DNA from: Modestobacter marinus | GTDB lineage: Bacteria; Actinomycetota; Actinomycetes; Mycobacteriales; Geodermatophilaceae | Length of the DNA stretch: 64,000 nucleotides | NCBI RefSeq assembly: GCF_011758655.1 | Contig: NZ_JAAMPA010000001.1 | Coordinates: 2,046,001 to 2,110,000 of the forward strand | Direction of reading: 5' to 3' | In this document: one piece after another, positions 7,409 through 29,230 of the stretch | Layout of the letters: each line of letters opens with the position of its first letter | Numbering within the stretch: position 1 is the stretch's first letter | The notes under the pieces: model-generated | Database searches by the model: none | Told to the model about the DNA's origin: nothing | What the model saw: only the letters and a program-made list of their open reading frames with translations | Position numbers and translations under genes: made by a program

Positions 7409-8337
7409 CCGTGCTCGCCCCGACCGTCCTGGCGGCAGCGGCCGACACCGGGGTGGTCATCGGCACCGGGGAGACCATCGTCTTCTGGGTGCTCGCCCCG
7501 GTGGCCCTGGCCGGCGCGCTGGGGATGGTGCTGTCCCGCAACGCCGTTCACTCCGCGCTCTGGCTGGTCGCCACCATGCTGAGCCTGGGCGTCTTCTACG
7601 TCGTCCAGGAGGCGCCGTTCCTGGGCGCGGCGCAGATCATCGTCTACACCGGCGCGATCATGATCCTGTTCCTCTTCGTGCTCATGCTGGTCGGCCGGGA
7701 GACGTCGGACTCGGTCGTCGAGACGCTGCGCGGGCAGCGGGTGGCGGCGATCGTGCTGGGGATCGGCTTCGCCGGGCTGGTCGGCGCCGGCATCGCGCGG
7801 GCCACCGAGGACCTGCCGGTCGCCGGGCTCACCGCGGTGCAGGGCACCGCGGGCGGGCCGGCCGCCGGCAACGTCGAGGCGATCGCCGCCGTGCTCTACG
7901 GCCGCTTCGTGCTGGCCTTCGAGGTCACCGGCGCCCTGCTCATCGTGGCCGCCGTCGGCGCGCTGCTGCTCACCCACACCGAACGGGAGCCCGGCACCCA
8001 GCGCAGCCAGAAGGAGCGCTCCCAGGCCAGGTTCCTCACCGACCGGCCGCAGACGCTGCCCGGCCCCGGCGTCTACGCGCGGGCCAACTCCATCGCCGCG
8101 CCCGGCCGGCTGCCCGACGGCGGCCTGGCGCCGAGCAGCTTCGCCACCGGCGTCGAGCCCGTCCGGGTCGACGAGCTGCCGCGCACCGGCAGCGTCGGCG
8201 CCGAGCGGGAGGGGCTGCCGCACGCCGGGGGCACCGACGCCGCCCTCGGCACGATCGGCGGCGGCACCACCGGCCCGGTCCCCGGCAGCGGCACCACCGG
8301 CCCGGTCCCCGGCAGCGGCCAGGAGGCGCCCCGATGA
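7405..8337 (+). CDS. nuoJ: NADH-quinone oxidoreductase subunit J with extended tail
   Basis: This small membrane subunit of complex I has five predicted helices in about the first 195 residues, including the conserved segment with [19 protein letters not shown]. The family core is about 170-200 aa. Here a hydrophilic tail of some 110 residues follows, ending in a duplicated GTTGPVPGS unit (residues 287-304). ATGA overlaps couple it to nuoI upstream and nuoK downstream. Confidence 0.94.
8263..8316 (+). repeat. Perfect 27-bp tandem duplication in nuoJ
   Basis: Two identical 27-base units (8263-8289 and 8290-8316), each beginning GGCACCACCGGCCCG, encode GTTGPVPGS twice in the NuoJ tail. Perfect identity at third positions suggests a recent duplication. 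Confidence 0.9.
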
Positions 8338-23952: not shown

Positions 23953-24234
23953 ATGGTGATCGAGGTGGTCCCGGACCGGCTGTACGCGCTGGCCGGGGTG
24001 CTGGACGCTGCGTCGGCCCGGGCGGCGCAGGTCGGTGCGCCGGCCGGCGGGGCGGGGGTGGGCGGGCCGCTCGGCCCGGTCGTGGCCGGGTTCGGCGAGA
24101 CGGTGGCGGCCGCGGGTGTCTGTCTGGCCGGCGAGCTGGCCTGGCTGCGCAGCGCCGTGGCGACGGCTGCCGACTCGTGGCAGCAGCTGGACGGTGGGCT
24201 GCTGCCGGGGCGGGGCACGGCGGTCCGTCGATGA
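23953..24234 (+). CDS. EspC/WXG100-like small helical protein
   Basis: This 93-aa, almost all-helical, Ala/Gly-rich protein starts MVIEVVPDRLYALAGVLD. That resembles the N terminus of EspC-type (DUF2580) proteins that accompany type VII secretion substrates. Trp residues occur in ELAWLRSAV and DSWQQL. The stop overlaps the ATG of the following 683-aa protein (ATGA), so the two are co-expressed in the way EspC-like proteins are often paired with a larger partner. No ESX machinery genes are in the window, so the assignment rests on length, fold and pairing only. Confidence 0.5.
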   Translation: MVIEVVPDRLYALAGVLDAASARAAQVGAPAGGAGVGGPLGPVVAGFGETVAAAGVCLAGELAWLRSAVATAADSWQQLDGGLLPGRGTAVRR

Positions 24235-26282
24235 GCACGTTGCTCCCCACTCCGGTCGCGCTGCCCGACCCGCCGGGCTCACCGGCCGCCCTGGGCGACG
24301 TGCTCGCACAGCTGGCGTCGGCCGGCTTCGCGGCGGGGACGACGGTGCACCTGCTGAGCGCGACGGCCGTCGACACCGGCTGGCAGGGCGCCGACGCGGT
24401 GGCGGTGACCACCGAGGTCGCCACGGCGACGGCCGTGGCGGGGGAGCTGCACCGCGCGCTGACCACGGCGGCGGCCCGCCTCGCCGAGCACCGTGAGCTC
24501 TGGCTGGTCGTCCTGTCCCGGGTCGCCGCCCTCCGCGCCGACCAGCGTGACCAGTTCGCCCGCGTCGGGGCGCGGGTCGCCGTGCTGGAGGGGCCGGCGT
24601 GGGGCGGCGGTCTCCCCGGCTCCGGTCGCGACGAGGCCGCCACGTTGAGCGCCGCGGTCGCTGCCGACGACGTCGACCGGGCCGCCGAGCACCGGGCGCT
24701 GCTGGACGACCTGGCCGCCGACGCCGCGGCCGTCGCGGCGGTGCTCGCTGCGGTCACCGCGCCGCTGGGTGGCCGCACCCGCCCCGGAGGCGCTGCGCAG
24801 GTCACCGCCTGGCTCGCCGGGCGGCTGCCGGGGTGGGGCGACGGTGCGTTCGCCGCGCTGGGCCGGGAGGCGGCGGAGATCCTCCTCCGGCCGGGAACGG
24901 CCCAGCAGCTCGAGGCCGCAGCCGCCGGCTGGTCCGGTCACGCTGCCGGCCCCGCCTTCGCGGCCGCCGTGGTCGAGCGGCTCGGCGTCGACGGCCTCCG
25001 CTGGCTGCTCACCGTGCTGGGCGAGCGAGGTGCCGCCGTCCCGGCGCTGGCCGGCCTGCTGGCCGGAACGCTCAGCGCGGTGGCTGCCGGGAGCCCGGCC
25101 GACCGGACCCTGAGCGACCTGCGGCTGGCGCCGGCGGACCCCGACGGCGCGGTCGACGTGCTGGCGCTCGGGATGGGCGCGGTGCTGCGTGCCCTTCCCG
25201 GCCGGGCTGGGGTCGGTGGCTCCGCCCTGGCCGCGTCCTGGGGGCGCCAGTTCCTGGCCCGGGAGGCGGCGCGAGGGGCCGGCGCGGCGACCGTGGTCGG
25301 CCCCACGGCTCCCGACCCCGTGGCGGCGGCGTTGAGCGTGGTGCGCCGCGCCGGTGACCGGGTCGCTGCGGGGGAGCTGCTCGCGGACGCGGCTGCCTGG
25401 ACGACGTTGCTGAGCCGGCCGTGGCCGGGCGGCACTGAGGACCTGGCTGCGGTCGTCACCCTCGCCGCGGCCGGCCCCGCTGCGGCGACGGCGGCCGGTG
25501 CGGCGCTGCGGTCGCTGGGCCGGGGGCTGGCCCCGGACTCCCCGAACCGGGTGTTGGTCGACCAGGGGACGTTCGCCCGGATCGGCGCGGAGGTGAGCGG
25601 ACTGGTGGCCGGACAGACCGGCGTCCTGGTGTCGGTCCTCGAGGCGGCCGTGCGGGACGGCGGGACGGGCGGCGCCCTCGACGCATCGACCGACACCCAG
25701 CTGCGCGGACTGGCGCACCTGTTCGCCGAGGAGGCCCGGAGCGCGCCGGTGGTCATCGCGCTCCACGCCGCCGCACGGGCAGCCGGGGTGCCGGCTCCGA
25801 GGGGCGCGGAGCTCGTCGGTGCCACCGTGGCGGTGCAGGAGCACGGCCAGCGGCTCCGCTATGCGCTCGCCTACAGCCAGGAGCAGGAGGCGGTGGTCGA
25901 CCGGCAGCTGCTCTGGACCATCGGCGTGGGGACACCCACCTCACTGGTCCACGGCCCTGCGGAGGACCTGGTCGAGGGGATCGTGGACAGTGCCGCGACC
26001 CTGGTCGGTGCCGACGGCGAGGTGCGGATGGGGCCCGACGACGGTCCGGTCCGCACGGCAGCGGACGCCGAGCGGGCCGCGGTCGAGCTGCTGACCCCCG
26101 CCGCGCCGGACACCGCCGCGGTCGAGGCCGCCGCGCGGGACGGGTTCGAGCAGGTCGCTGCCACGCTCGGCCGGCTGGACCCGCCGTCCCCGTCGCTGCT
26201 CGACCGGCTCGACGACCTGCCGCTCCCGGAACACGAGGACAGGCGCCGCCACCGGTGGGAACGGCTCAAAATCACTCGATAG
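24231..26282 (+). CDS. 683-aa protein of unknown function paired with EspC-like gene
   Basis: I do not recognise this family with confidence. It is Ala/Val/Leu-rich, predicted mostly helical and soluble, with no signal peptide or membrane segment. Residues about 10-130 look WXG-like in their heptad spacing and include TAVDTGWQGADAV. The middle contains Ala/Gly-rich helices. The C-terminal part (about 560-660) includes a hydrophilic GADGEVRMGPDDGPVRTAADAE segment, and the protein ends in basic residues. The arrangement, a small EspC-like protein coupled to a long helical partner, resembles actinobacterial secretion-associated or polymorphic-toxin scaffolds, but no toxin motif is visible. Confidence 0.55.
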   Translation: MSTLLPTPVALPDPPGSPAALGDVLAQLASAGFAAGTTVHLLSATAVDTGWQGADAVAVTTEVATATAVAGELHRALTTAAARLAEHRELWLVVLSRVAALRADQRDQFARVGARVAVLEGPAWGGGLPGSGRDEAATLSAAVAADDVDRAAEHRALLDDLAADAAAVAAVLAAVTAPLGGRTRPGGAAQVTAWLAGRLPGWGDGAFAALGREAAEILLRPGTAQQLEAAAAGWSGHAAGPAFAAAVVERLGVDGLRWLLTVLGERGAAVPALAGLLAGTLSAVAAGSPADRTLSDLRLAPADPDGAVDVLALGMGAVLRALPGRAGVGGSALAASWGRQFLAREAARGAGAATVVGPTAPDPVAAALSVVRRAGDRVAAGELLADAAAWTTLLSRPWPGGTEDLAAVVTLAAAGPAAATAAGAALRSLGRGLAPDSPNRVLVDQGTFARIGAEVSGLVAGQTGVLVSVLEAAVRDGGTGGALDASTDTQLRGLAHLFAEEARSAPVVIALHAAARAAGVPAPRGAELVGATVAVQEHGQRLRYALAYSQEQEAVVDRQLLWTIGVGTPTSLVHGPAEDLVEGIVDSAATLVGADGEVRMGPDDGPVRTAADAERAAVELLTPAAPDTAAVEAAARDGFEQVAATLGRLDPPSPSLLDRLDDLPLPEHEDRRRHRWERLKITR

Positions 26283-26474
26283 GTGACTTTCAGTAGATCG
26301 ACCAATGCAAGGAGTGACGACACAACGAAGATCATTAACCCAGTCGTGTTGCAGATTGCGCGTGTGGGTGACCCCATGCAGTCTCTTAGTTGCGGTCTGT
26401 GCCGGACGACGCTCTGCCCCCGCGTGGGCGGCTGCCGCGACATTCGAGCCCTTTCACGCCCTCAGGGAGACGTC
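26283..26474 (+). promoter_or_regulatory. Lower-GC intergenic region and structured leader upstream of the 30-aa peptide
   Basis: Roughly the first 100 bases after the 683-aa gene are clearly less GC-rich than the rest of the window (for example GATCATTAACCCAGTCG). After that, GTTGCGG (26389-26395) can pair with CCGCGAC (26435-26441), allowing one G-U pair, to close a loop containing further GC pairs. This could hold the promoter and a folded 5' leader of the peptide gene. I found no match to a c-di-GMP or other riboswitch consensus. Confidence 0.35.
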
Positions 26475-26567
26475 ATGTCCGCACGCACCGCTGTGACCGC
26501 CGACCGTTCCGCCATCGCCTCCGGCCGTAACTGGAAGTGGGGCCGTAACTGGAAGTGGGGCCGCTGA
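26475..26567 (+). CDS. 30-aa peptide with tandem GRNWKW repeat
   Basis: The ATG is preceded by GGGAGA at normal spacing. The N-terminal half (16 residues, beginning MSARTAVTADRS) is ordinary and leader-like. The C-terminal half is GRNWKW-GRNWKW-GR, giving four Trp and a net positive charge. The two 18-base units are identical. I know no family for it. Possibilities are a ribosomally made, modified or Trp-rich antimicrobial-type peptide, a signalling peptide, or a Trp-codon leader peptide controlling downstream expression. No modification enzyme or transporter is adjacent; the next gene is the GGDEF/EAL protein. Confidence 0.6.
   Translation: MSARTAVTADRSAIASGRNWKWGRNWKWGR
26523..26558 (+). 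repeat. Perfect 18-bp tandem repeat encoding GRNWKW
   Basis: Two identical units (26523-26540 and 26541-26558), each GGCCGTAACTGGAAGTGG, lie in frame inside the small peptide gene. A third partial unit, GGCCG, follows before the stop. Confidence 0.95.
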
Positions 26568-26594: not shown

Positions 26595-26689
26595 GGGAAC
26601 CCTGATCGCCCGCAGGAGTGAGTTCACGACACGGGACTGCCGTGCGCTGTTACCTTCGGCCTTCGCCGACCTCGACAGACAGGCTGCCC

Positions 26690-29230
26690 GTGGCCCAGTC
26701 CGCGGCCCCCGAGACCACGGGGGCCCCCCTGATCCGGCGGCCGTGGACGATCGCCCTCATGGCGAGCGCGGTCGCCGTCGCTGCTGCGCTGCCCGTGTTG
26801 CCGGCCGGCTGGCAGGACGCCCCGGTCGGGTTGGTGCTGGTCCTGCTGGCTGCCTTCCTGCTCACGGAGTCCGTGCAGTTCGACGTCGAGTTCCGGAAGC
26901 AGACGATCTCGCTGTCGCCGACGGAGATAGCTGTCGTCGTCGGGTTGCTCGAAGTAGGTGGTCTGTGGACGGCCGTCACTCGGGTGGCTGCCGTTGTGAT
27001 CGTCGAGTCCTGGCAGCGGTACCCCGCCCCCAAGGTGCTGTTCAATGCGGCGCTGGCCGTGGCCGAGTTGAGCGCGGCGTTGGCCGTGCTGACCCTGTTG
27101 CCACCGTTGGACGTGACTGACCCGATCGCCTGGCTGTCCCTGATGATCGCCGTCCTGGTCACCGGGATCGTCAGCATGGTCGGCGTCGGCGCTGCTGTGT
27201 CGCTGACCGAGGGCTTCCCCGGCTGGTCCTTCTTCACGGCAGCCGTGCCCAACCTGGTGCTCGGGCCGGTCAGTGTGGTCATCGGGGTGATCGCCCTTCT
27301 GCTCACCCGCGAGACGTCCTGGACCTGGGCACTGACCATCCCCTTGCTCGTCGTCGTCGTCGTGGTCTTCCGCCAGTCCGCCCGCGCGGTGCGTGAACGG
27401 CGCACCGTCCAACGGGTCTACGACTTCGCCCGGCGGGTGGAGTTGGTGTCCGCCGACGAGTCCGGCACCCGGGAGATCGTCCAGGCCGTCCGTGAGCTGC
27501 TCAACGCCGATCGCGTCGCGCTGTGGTTGCCTCCGTACCTCGACGAGGGACCGCAACTGCTCGTCGACGCGGCCGACCGGGACGTGGCCTGGTACGACGG
27601 GCCCGGCGATCCGGACGACCTGGTCCGTGCTCGCGCCGTCGTGCCGGGCGCCGAGGGCCCGGTCTTCGTCTCCTACGGCCGGGCAGACGACGCCGAGCGG
27701 GCGGCGCTCCTCCGTCGTGGCGCACGCGAGGTGCTCGGCGCGCCCGTGACCACCGCGGCCGGTGAGCCGGGGTACCTCGAGGTCTGCGACCGGCAGGGCG
27801 ACATCGTCTCCTTCGCAGACGGGGACCGCAGCGCACTCGAGTCGATGCTGACCCACGTCAACGCCGCCATCCGGCAGCAGCAGCTGCTCAGCCAGATCCG
27901 GCACGACGGCGATCACGACCGGCTGACCGGGTTGCCGAACCGGCAGCGGCTGGGCGGGGAGATCGACGCCCTGCTGATGGCCGAGCCGGCCACCGCCCGG
28001 GTCGGGCTCGTGCTGGCCGCCCTGGACGGGTACACCGACGTCACGGACACGCTCGGGCACGCGGCCAGCGACGAGCTCCTCCTCGTCACCGCCGGGCTGC
28101 TCCGCGAGCACGCGCCGCCCCAGGCCGTCGTCGCCCGGATGGAGGGCGGTCAGTTCGCCGTCCTGCTGCCCGGTCTGTCCCTGGCGGCCACCGAGCGGGC
28201 TGCCCGCCGGCTGCGGGAGGCCGCCTCCACCCGGGCCCGGGTCGCCGGGCTGGACCTGGAGGTCGCGCTGACCATCGGGGTGGCAGCGGCGCCGGTGCAC
28301 GGCTCGGACTCCGGCACCCTGATCCAGCGGGCGGACGTGGCGCTGCTCGCGGCACAGGGCTCCGGGGGAGTGGCGACCTACCACCCCGTCCTGGACCAGC
28401 AGAGCCTGCGCCGCCTGCAGCTGGGCACGGAGCTCGAGGCCGCGATGGCCGACGGGCAGATCTCGGTGGTCTTCCAGCCGATCGTGGACACGCGCACCGC
28501 GGACATCGTCTCGGTCGAGACGCTCGTCCGCTGGGCGCACCCGCGCTACGGGGACATCTCACCGGACGACTTCATCAGCCTGGCCGAGCAGATCGGCCGG
28601 ATCGGGCTGCTGACCGACCACGTGCTGGACCGTGCGCTGGACCGCTGCCGGCGGTGGCTGGACCAGGACATCGCGCTGTCGGTGGCGGTCAACCTCTCGG
28701 CGCACTGCCTCGCCGAGCCGGACATCGTCGAGCGCGTCCGCCGGGCGCTGCGCCGCCACGGCGTCCCGGGTGAGCTGCTGACCCTGGAGCTCACCGAGGG
28801 CAGCGTCGTCGACGACACGGTGCGCAACAGCACCGTGCTGGCCGACCTGCACGCCCTGGGCCTGCGGCTGTCCATGGACGACTTCGGCACCGGCTACTCC
28901 TCGCTGTCCCAGCTGAGGCTGCTGCCGATCGACGAGCTGAAGATCGACAAGTCCTTCGTGCTGGGCATGTCGACGAGCTCGAACGAGTCCTTCATCGCCC
29001 GGTCGATCGTCGAGCTGGCGCACAACCTCGGCCTGCGCGTGGTCGCCGAGGGGGTCGAGGACGAGATGACCCGGGACCTGCTGACCCAGATGGGCTGCGA
29101 CAAGCTGCAGGGCTTCCTGGTCAGCCGCCCGCTGCCTGAGGATCGGCTCGAGGGTTGGCTGCTGGCGCGCACCGGGGTCCGCGCCGCCGCGCCGGGGGCC
29201 ACGCACCGGCGGCTGTTCGTCCGCACCTGA
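26690..29230 (+). CDS. Membrane GAF-GGDEF-EAL c-di-GMP signalling protein
   Basis: About seven membrane helices occupy residues 15-230 and a GAF-like region about 240-400. The GGDEF domain starts at HDRLTGLPN near 409 and the EAL domain runs from about 565. The GGDEF signature is EGGQF (485-489), so cyclase activity is probably lost. The EAL domain is complete apart from ETL for EAL (E610): NLSAHCL, ELTEG, DDFGTGYSSL, KIDKSFV, VAEGVED and QGF are all present. It is therefore likely a c-di-GMP phosphodiesterase with a regulatory GGDEF domain and membrane sensor. Start uncertain: GTG 26690 (846 aa) has a reasonable upstream AGG, while GTG 26618 would add 24 residues but its AGGA abuts the start. 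Confidence 0.9.
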   Translation: MAQSAAPETTGAPLIRRPWTIALMASAVAVAAALPVLPAGWQDAPVGLVLVLLAAFLLTESVQFDVEFRKQTISLSPTEIAVVVGLLEVGGLWTAVTRVAAVVIVESWQRYPAPKVLFNAALAVAELSAALAVLTLLPPLDVTDPIAWLSLMIAVLVTGIVSMVGVGAAVSLTEGFPGWSFFTAAVPNLVLGPVSVVIGVIALLLTRETSWTWALTIPLLVVVVVVFRQSARAVRERRTVQRVYDFARRVELVSADESGTREIVQAVRELLNADRVALWLPPYLDEGPQLLVDAADRDVAWYDGPGDPDDLVRARAVVPGAEGPVFVSYGRADDAERAALLRRGAREVLGAPVTTAAGEPGYLEVCDRQGDIVSFADGDRSALESMLTHVNAAIRQQQLLSQIRHDGDHDRLTGLPNRQRLGGEIDALLMAEPATARVGLVLAALDGYTDVTDTLGHAASDELLLVTAGLLREHAPPQAVVARMEGGQFAVLLPGLSLAATERAARRLREAASTRARVAGLDLEVALTIGVAAAPVHGSDSGTLIQRADVALLAAQGSGGVATYHPVLDQQSLRRLQLGTELEAAMADGQISVVFQPIVDTRTADIVSVETLVRWAHPRYGDISPDDFISLAEQIGRIGLLTDHVLDRALDRCRRWLDQDIALSVAVNLSAHCLAEPDIVERVRRALRRHGVPGELLTLELTEGSVVDDTVRNSTVLADLHALGLRLSMDDFGTGYSSLSQLRLLPIDELKIDKSFVLGMSTSSNESFIARSIVELAHNLGLRVVAEGVEDEMTRDLLTQMGCDKLQGFLVSRPLPEDRLEGWLLARTGVRAAAPGATHRRLFVRT

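Follow-up and report, generated by a model that had tools for sequence, protein, structure and literature searches.

A conserved micropeptide gene of tandem tryptophan hexads in Modestobacter that probably encodes the ligand of an adjoining c-di-GMP membrane sensor

What might a bacterium do with a peptide of 30 residues whose C-terminal half consists of tandem tryptophan hexads? A small open reading frame (ORF) of Modestobacter marinus raises this question. It lies in the window, by which we mean the whole stretch of 64,000 nucleotides of DNA that was analysed, begins with an ATG at 26475, ends with a TGA at 26567 and encodes MSARTAVTADRSAIASGRNWKWGRNWKWGR (Table 1). An original prediction, made from the DNA letters, had seen here an unrecognised small gene with a ribosome-binding site, an ATG start and a cationic, Trp-repeat C-terminal half encoded by two identical 18-base units. 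Each of these features was confirmed. TRF reports a repeat at 26523-26563 with a unit of 18 bp, 2.3 copies, 100% matches and a score of 82, and just one of its 97 rows over the window scores higher (8256-8319, score 121). That top-scoring repeat of the window has a 27-bp tandem unit, 2.4 copies and 97% matches. Scans of Pfam, NCBIfam, PHROGs and PADLOC returned no family for the 30-residue peptide, which contains no Peptidase_S8 domain (Pfam), and a peptide-profile search of PDB sequences gave no useful match.

Table 1. Features of the hexad locus and its partner gene, with positions in the window
Feature	Position	Strand	Basis or remark
Hexad micropeptide gene	26475..26567	+	30 codons plus stop; homologues at the same locus in 22/23 genomes of the genus
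Shine-Dalgarno-like GGGAGA	26465..26470	+	Read directly; a few bases 5' of the ATG
Tandem 18-bp units, encoding GRNWKW x2 plus GR	26523..26563	+	TRF
Conserved leader element	26365..26477	+	R2 model match, alignments
Leader core GCGGTCTGTGCCGGACGACGCTCTGCCCCCGCG...	about 26392-26438	+	Nearly invariant across the genus
Extended -10-like TGTTACCTT	26648..26656	+	TGnTAnnnT; candidate separate promoter for the sensor gene
Partner gene: N-terminal membrane domain, GAF, GGDEF, EAL	26690..29230	+	Pfam GAF, GGDEF, EAL; GTG start assumed, 26618 possible
N-terminal membrane sensor domain	26690..27415	+	No Pfam family at cut-off; homologues phylum-wide

As judged from sequence comparison, the ORF is almost certainly a genuine conserved coding gene. 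Chance does not account for it, because 90 parsed homologues at the same locus share the ORF, its ribosome-binding site, its start and the layout of the repeats; a Shine-Dalgarno-like core is present in 90/90, and the start is ATG in 87 and GTG in three. A protein search of the 23 Modestobacter genomes found 21 loci whose translations share this layout, and one more genome (G006) was added through the leader model, giving a homologue in 22. The sole genome of the genus without one (G010) has a completeness of 70%. Protein matches away from the locus were loose and weak, and were left out of these counts. In the family, leader model R1 matches 101 of 112 genomes, and the hexad ORF begins at the end of the leader element in 100 of these 101; in the other (G104) the contig ends inside the element. 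Among the 100 genomes where the ORF is seen, 99 have at least two hexad units and G088 has just one, and the homologous ORFs span 18-42 codons and end in 1-5 tandem hexads. Model R2, run over 397 genomes of the order, matched 75 family genomes and, weakly, six others; no hexad ORF followed any of the six weak matches outside the family (0/6). The homologous peptides are short and cationic, with a net charge of 3 to 9 and no hydrophobic segment. Their maximum 12-residue hydropathy is 0.43 in the window peptide and 1.07 in the highest of the 90 homologues, and none has a signal sequence or hydrophobic leader. The N-terminal half had been called ordinary; in the homologues it proves to be variable.

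The hexad has the consensus R-[GTSN]-x-[KR]-W-[GSTN] (first units of 90 loci; bracketed residues are the majority), and position x holds 14 different residues across these first units, statistics in which one locus with a degenerate first unit (L015) was misread by the script. The original prediction had tied its case to conservation of the frame and of an NWKW core. The frame is indeed conserved. Read from the homologues, however, what is conserved is the wider motif; exact NWKW is confined to close relatives and does not form the core. In three of 101 loci M or S replaces K/R before every Trp, and thus the basic residue is not essential.

Within one gene, x is mismatched between adjacent units in only 2 of 167 pairs. 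For these 167 pairs pS was 0.388 and pN was 0.0125, a ratio of 0.032; at least one synonymous codon difference was present in 137 pairs, and the DNA was identical in 25. Because codons differ while the protein repeats stay identical, fresh duplication alone is not sufficient to explain the identity of the units. This is an unusual evolutionary pattern, in which identity between repeats is conserved and the repeated residue is nearly free, and it points to a matching of the repeat to a partner, not to a fixed chemistry.

The next gene on the same strand is a GAF-GGDEF-EAL gene in 89 of the 90 loci, and the remaining locus lies at a contig edge. On the 5' side of the hexad locus, gene content differs among loci. 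The window has there a 701-codon Ala-rich ORF (24177-26282) with no Pfam family; it has homologues at some family loci, and YajQ is nearer in others. The sensor gene of the window shows 94% identity to one in a named Modestobacter strain. The suggestion that the small ORF is a signal peptide of this GGDEF/EAL protein is unsupported, as the ORF has its own stop and no hydrophobic stretch, and the protein match (tblastn) begins about 185-467 bp downstream. The first 260 residues of the sensor protein match no Pfam family at cut-off and no MASE model at E <= 1. AlphaFold2, run from five sequences, predicted a helical membrane domain (pLDDT 62, pTM 0.58). The best Foldseek matches of the predicted domain were ECF transporter S components (RibU, FolT and ThiT), with E 0.3 at best from a model of pLDDT 62; the probability was 0.93-0.99 for RibU, and target TM-scores were 0.56-0.66 among the best S-component matches. 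A sensor-profile search of PDB sequences did not support the likeness, and we treat it as a lead from structure prediction.

The hexad unit varies together with this membrane domain. At 59 loci, the rho of unit distance was 0.36 against the membrane domain, 0.17 against GAF and 0.10 against GGDEF-EAL. For co-variation runs made after the parsing, the unit of L015 was entered by hand, and so were those of certain loci whose first hexad is incomplete. When rate-matched soluble columns were used at the 59 loci, the partial value was 0.35 for the membrane domain and 0.01 the other way. Across 99 genomes, controlling for GAF and for the fast GAF columns, the partial rho was 0.27 for all pairs and 0.42 within genera (0/1000 within-genus permutations each), and, with the membrane domain controlled for, the fast GAF columns yielded 0.02 and 0.06. 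The values for membrane domain and GAF in single genera were 0.48/0.34 (g1), 0.59/0.56 (g2), 0.65/0.22 (g3), 0.35/0.12 (g4) and 0.65/0.04 (g9), with the weakest contrast in g2. The signal is distributed along the membrane domain and drops at the domain end. Cytoplasmic-side residues add signal beyond the outer ones (0.28, 0/1000) and the reverse gives 0.04 (790/1000), both residue sets having been drawn up manually on the basis of charges and the model. Part of the co-variation could come from linkage or from a better phylogenetic signal of the fast domain.

Trp repeats stand before the same domain elsewhere as well. Among 35 chosen genomes, early-branching family members and other families showed, before the domain, ORFs with repeats such as RAGRWG x3, RNGRWG x3, DGNTWTFV x5, and SSTWA and SARWS pentads. 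Across the class, the profile of the sensor domain matched 52 of 296 genomes. We examined 89 of the 126 matches listed, which include the window's own gene, and dropped seven with less than 300 bp upstream. Strict Trp repeats end an ORF just upstream in 46 of the resulting 82 loci; 37 of these ORFs have at least 400 codons, eight have 60-249 and one is shorter. By the same strict measure, the antisense control gave 2/82, and EAL genes without the domain gave 0/20 (Fisher P 1.2e-6), these 20 being hand-picked in four genomes with known sensor genes omitted and with starts estimated from frame lengths. A loose repeat metric gave 54/82 loci, 15/82 in antisense and 6/20 in the EAL control; we quote the strict metric because the first and the loose metrics raised control matches too. 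A second search, across the phylum, placed the domain in 50 of 296 genomes, and 27 of the 75 matches listed (four of the 75 already seen) were examined and two with less than 300 bp upstream dropped. In this second sample, 14 of 25 new loci had strict Trp repeats upstream (antisense 4/25). A strict Trp repeat was absent upstream of the sensor domain in 36/82 and 11/25 loci.

The one complete long upstream ORF that was scanned (Pfam) is a subtilase (E 3.9e-41), and the others are alike by eye only. Several small partners elsewhere carry a hydrophobic N-terminal segment, and many partners elsewhere look exported. The window genome has a second sensor-domain gene outside the window (G000:C1:494080-494862, L272), and the ORF upstream of it ends in a Trp-rich WSRMRWRADEWSRMRWR-type tail. 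At two loci (L208 and L209) and in genomes G097 and G089, a sensor-like N-terminal domain precedes kinase-like sequence, not GGDEF/EAL, and a Trp-rich tail is found upstream; the G097 protein, the one of the two that was scanned, has HisKA and HATPase_c (Pfam). Because kinase-type proteins with the domain also have the Trp-rich upstream tail, the Trp repeats track the membrane domain rather than any particular output domain. At another locus (L243), a short ORF, MNGPSFNGPSFNGPSFN, stands before a sensor-domain gene and has Phe in place of Trp. The hexads here and the pentads elsewhere may be linked by analogy, through where they lie, their Trp periodicity and the domain that both have downstream.

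Based on the sequence evidence, the reading that the hexad peptide and the adjoining membrane sensor are a matched pair is well supported. We believe that the peptide is probably the ligand of the sensor, with GRNWKWGRNWKWGR as the putative ligand sequence, and we propose a model of how the pair may work. The N-terminal half of the peptide would be a variable spacer, and the C-terminal half would offer two to five identical Trp hexads for binding, in a multivalent form whose sequence is specific to the species. By docking on the membrane domain of the sensor, perhaps from inside, the peptide would alter c-di-GMP output, either synthesis or breakdown, and so set the balance of GGDEF and EAL. 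Having several identical units may provide avidity. The units would have to match each other and the sensor, and the exact residue may drift in step with the sensor. Elsewhere among actinobacteria, domains of this kind would have as partners Trp repeats that end long peptidase-like ORFs or sit on small proteins whose N-terminal segment is hydrophobic; in this family the partner may have been reduced to the bare repeats, without a recognisable export signal.

We place more confidence in the pairing by itself than in the full mechanism, in which the membrane sensor domain has a signal-less Trp-repeat peptide as its cognate partner, and docking of that peptide changes c-di-GMP output. Direct binding, the side of the membrane and the sign of regulation are parts that we infer. 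We put the chances of the full mechanism at about even because of the sensor loci without repeats, the reliance on an analogy between hexads and pentads, the possible contribution of linkage or phylogenetic signal, and a possible cis-acting leader. More tentatively, the locus may belong to an undescribed, Actinomycetota-wide class of peptides and receptors, in which Trp-repeat species codes are read by a common membrane domain, perhaps S-component-like, that feeds c-di-GMP enzymes or histidine kinases; here the code would be nothing more than a cytosolic micropeptide, to be recognised from the inner side of the membrane. This matters because only a minority of c-di-GMP enzymes have a known input signal. 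If sensors of this type do respond to the Trp-repeat product, roughly half of a sensor class found across the phylum would gain a candidate ligand open to synthesis. The micropeptide family itself is absent from the four libraries scanned.

The peptide might instead leave the cell by an unknown route and reach the sensor from outside, as a signal of density or kinship that is particular to the species. Such an exported pheromone would fit a sequence that is hypervariable between species and co-varies with the membrane domain at 0/1000 within-genus permutations. The hydrophobic N-terminal segments of several small partners elsewhere also speak for it, as does the best weak fold match, since ECF transporter S components bind their ligand from outside. 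We nevertheless consider export unlikely: none of the 90 homologues has a signal sequence, the ten neighbouring ORFs scanned include no processing or export gene, and the residues assigned to the cytoplasm co-vary more than those assigned to the outside (topology by hand).

The leader element bears on a different possibility, that of control in cis. Two readings of the leader itself were rejected. As a riboswitch, it matched no Rfam family at gathering score, and a loose threshold returned one weak, irrelevant match. As a translated upstream ORF, its frame is broken by one- and two-base indels between homologues. Folding of the leader was no better than that of shuffles (z 0.39), and changes on both sides were seen in one of five predicted pairs, in one sequence, and in 0 of 18 in the genus alignment. 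A second copy of the leader lies about 0.5-2 kb 5' of the hexad gene at three loci (L112, L119 and L139, in G085, G062 and G067), and in two of the three it precedes an ORF of 70-77 codons with a hydrophobic segment and no hexads. At 26312-26353 and at the same place in relatives, an inverted repeat GACAC(A/G)AC...GTCGTGT is found about 120-160 bp 5' of the small ORF, and is possibly part of an operator or promoter.

In a cis-acting mechanism, translation or stalling at the Trp/Arg hexads would control a downstream hairpin and hence expression of the GGDEF/EAL gene. The ORF does always lie 5' of the sensor gene, a highly conserved leader precedes it, and perfect stems of at least 8 bp occur within 150 nt 3' of the stop in 34 of 90 loci. 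We give this reading even less credence than export, however. It is the protein repeat that is under selection while its codons drift, and the co-variation is with the membrane domain of the protein. The window Trp codons alternate with Lys or stand six apart, with no run of adjacent Trp codons and with a flanking residue that is almost free. Elsewhere, Trp repeats before the same domain terminate ORFs of 400 codons or more; with Trp at every sixth codon, this weakens the Trp-codon leader that had been suggested earlier. A TGnTAnnnT motif stands 3' of the small ORF in 88 of 90 loci, a figure without a computed chance level, and would give the sensor gene a separate -10-like signal at most loci. 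A strict consensus scan of the window for promoters and terminators returned nothing, including at 26648-26656, and the fold of the leader argues against this mechanism as well.

A RiPP precursor or a cationic Trp-rich antimicrobial with its core repeated in tandem had also been suggested, and we regard it as improbable. Repeated cores are known in RiPPs, and the layout of a spacer followed by a repeated cationic Trp core is suggestive. However, the earlier remark that no maturase or transporter is nearby held up, in that none of the ten neighbouring ORFs (Pfam scan) is a maturase or an exporter. Moreover, the partnership with a c-di-GMP sensor gene is fixed (89/90 loci), the peptide co-varies with a membrane domain, and K/R before Trp is missing in the three loci noted above. 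Taken together, the RiPP, antimicrobial, signal-peptide and Trp-attenuator readings are all weakened. Least probable of all, with a very small chance in our estimate, is a regulatory RNA in which the leader is the functional part and the ORF is incidental, for although the leader core is nearly invariant in the genus and its model matches across the family, the ORF is under strong protein-level constraint and the leader has almost no covariation, no Rfam match at gathering score and no better fold than shuffles.

A matched pair of peptide and sensor thus remains our preferred reading. We found no description of such a Trp-repeat/sensor pair in the one open-access library searched. Trp attenuator leader peptides of the TrpL type are short ORFs rich in Trp codons, and the hexad gene resembles them in being such an ORF 5' of another gene; unlike them, it has no adjacent Trp codons, the downstream gene is GGDEF/EAL and not trp, and repeat identity is kept at the protein level. 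ECF S components (RibU, FolT and ThiT) are like the sensor domain in being its best Foldseek matches, but the matches have E >= 0.3 from a model of pLDDT 62 and no sequence match, and the domain here is fused to signalling domains. MASE1 of E. coli DgcE (PMC6510439) is a MASE-type integral membrane sensor domain of a GGDEF/EAL protein. The likeness to MASE-type domains is that of a multi-helix membrane domain feeding c-di-GMP enzymes; the difference is that the domain here matches no MASE model and has a linked Trp-repeat gene. The subtilase (Peptidase_S8) ORFs with C-terminal Trp pentads likewise carry tandem Trp repeats and immediately precede a gene that has this domain, but the hexad gene has no protease part, carries hexads instead of pentads and lacks an export signal; the S8 assignment comes from one full-length example scanned (Pfam).

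AgrD/AgrC and ComX/ComP are bacterial pairs of peptide ligand and receptor. The hexad locus is similar to them in that a small, fast-diverging peptide is encoded beside a membrane signalling protein and co-varies with its membrane domain. Unlike the Agr and Com peptides, the hexad peptide has no signal or export sequence and no adjacent processing gene, it consists in part of tandem identical units, and the output of its partner is GGDEF-EAL. We file the locus as a new kind because, by the mechanism that we infer, it may work like a peptide-receptor pair, yet it departs from the exported kinds in the features that were tested.
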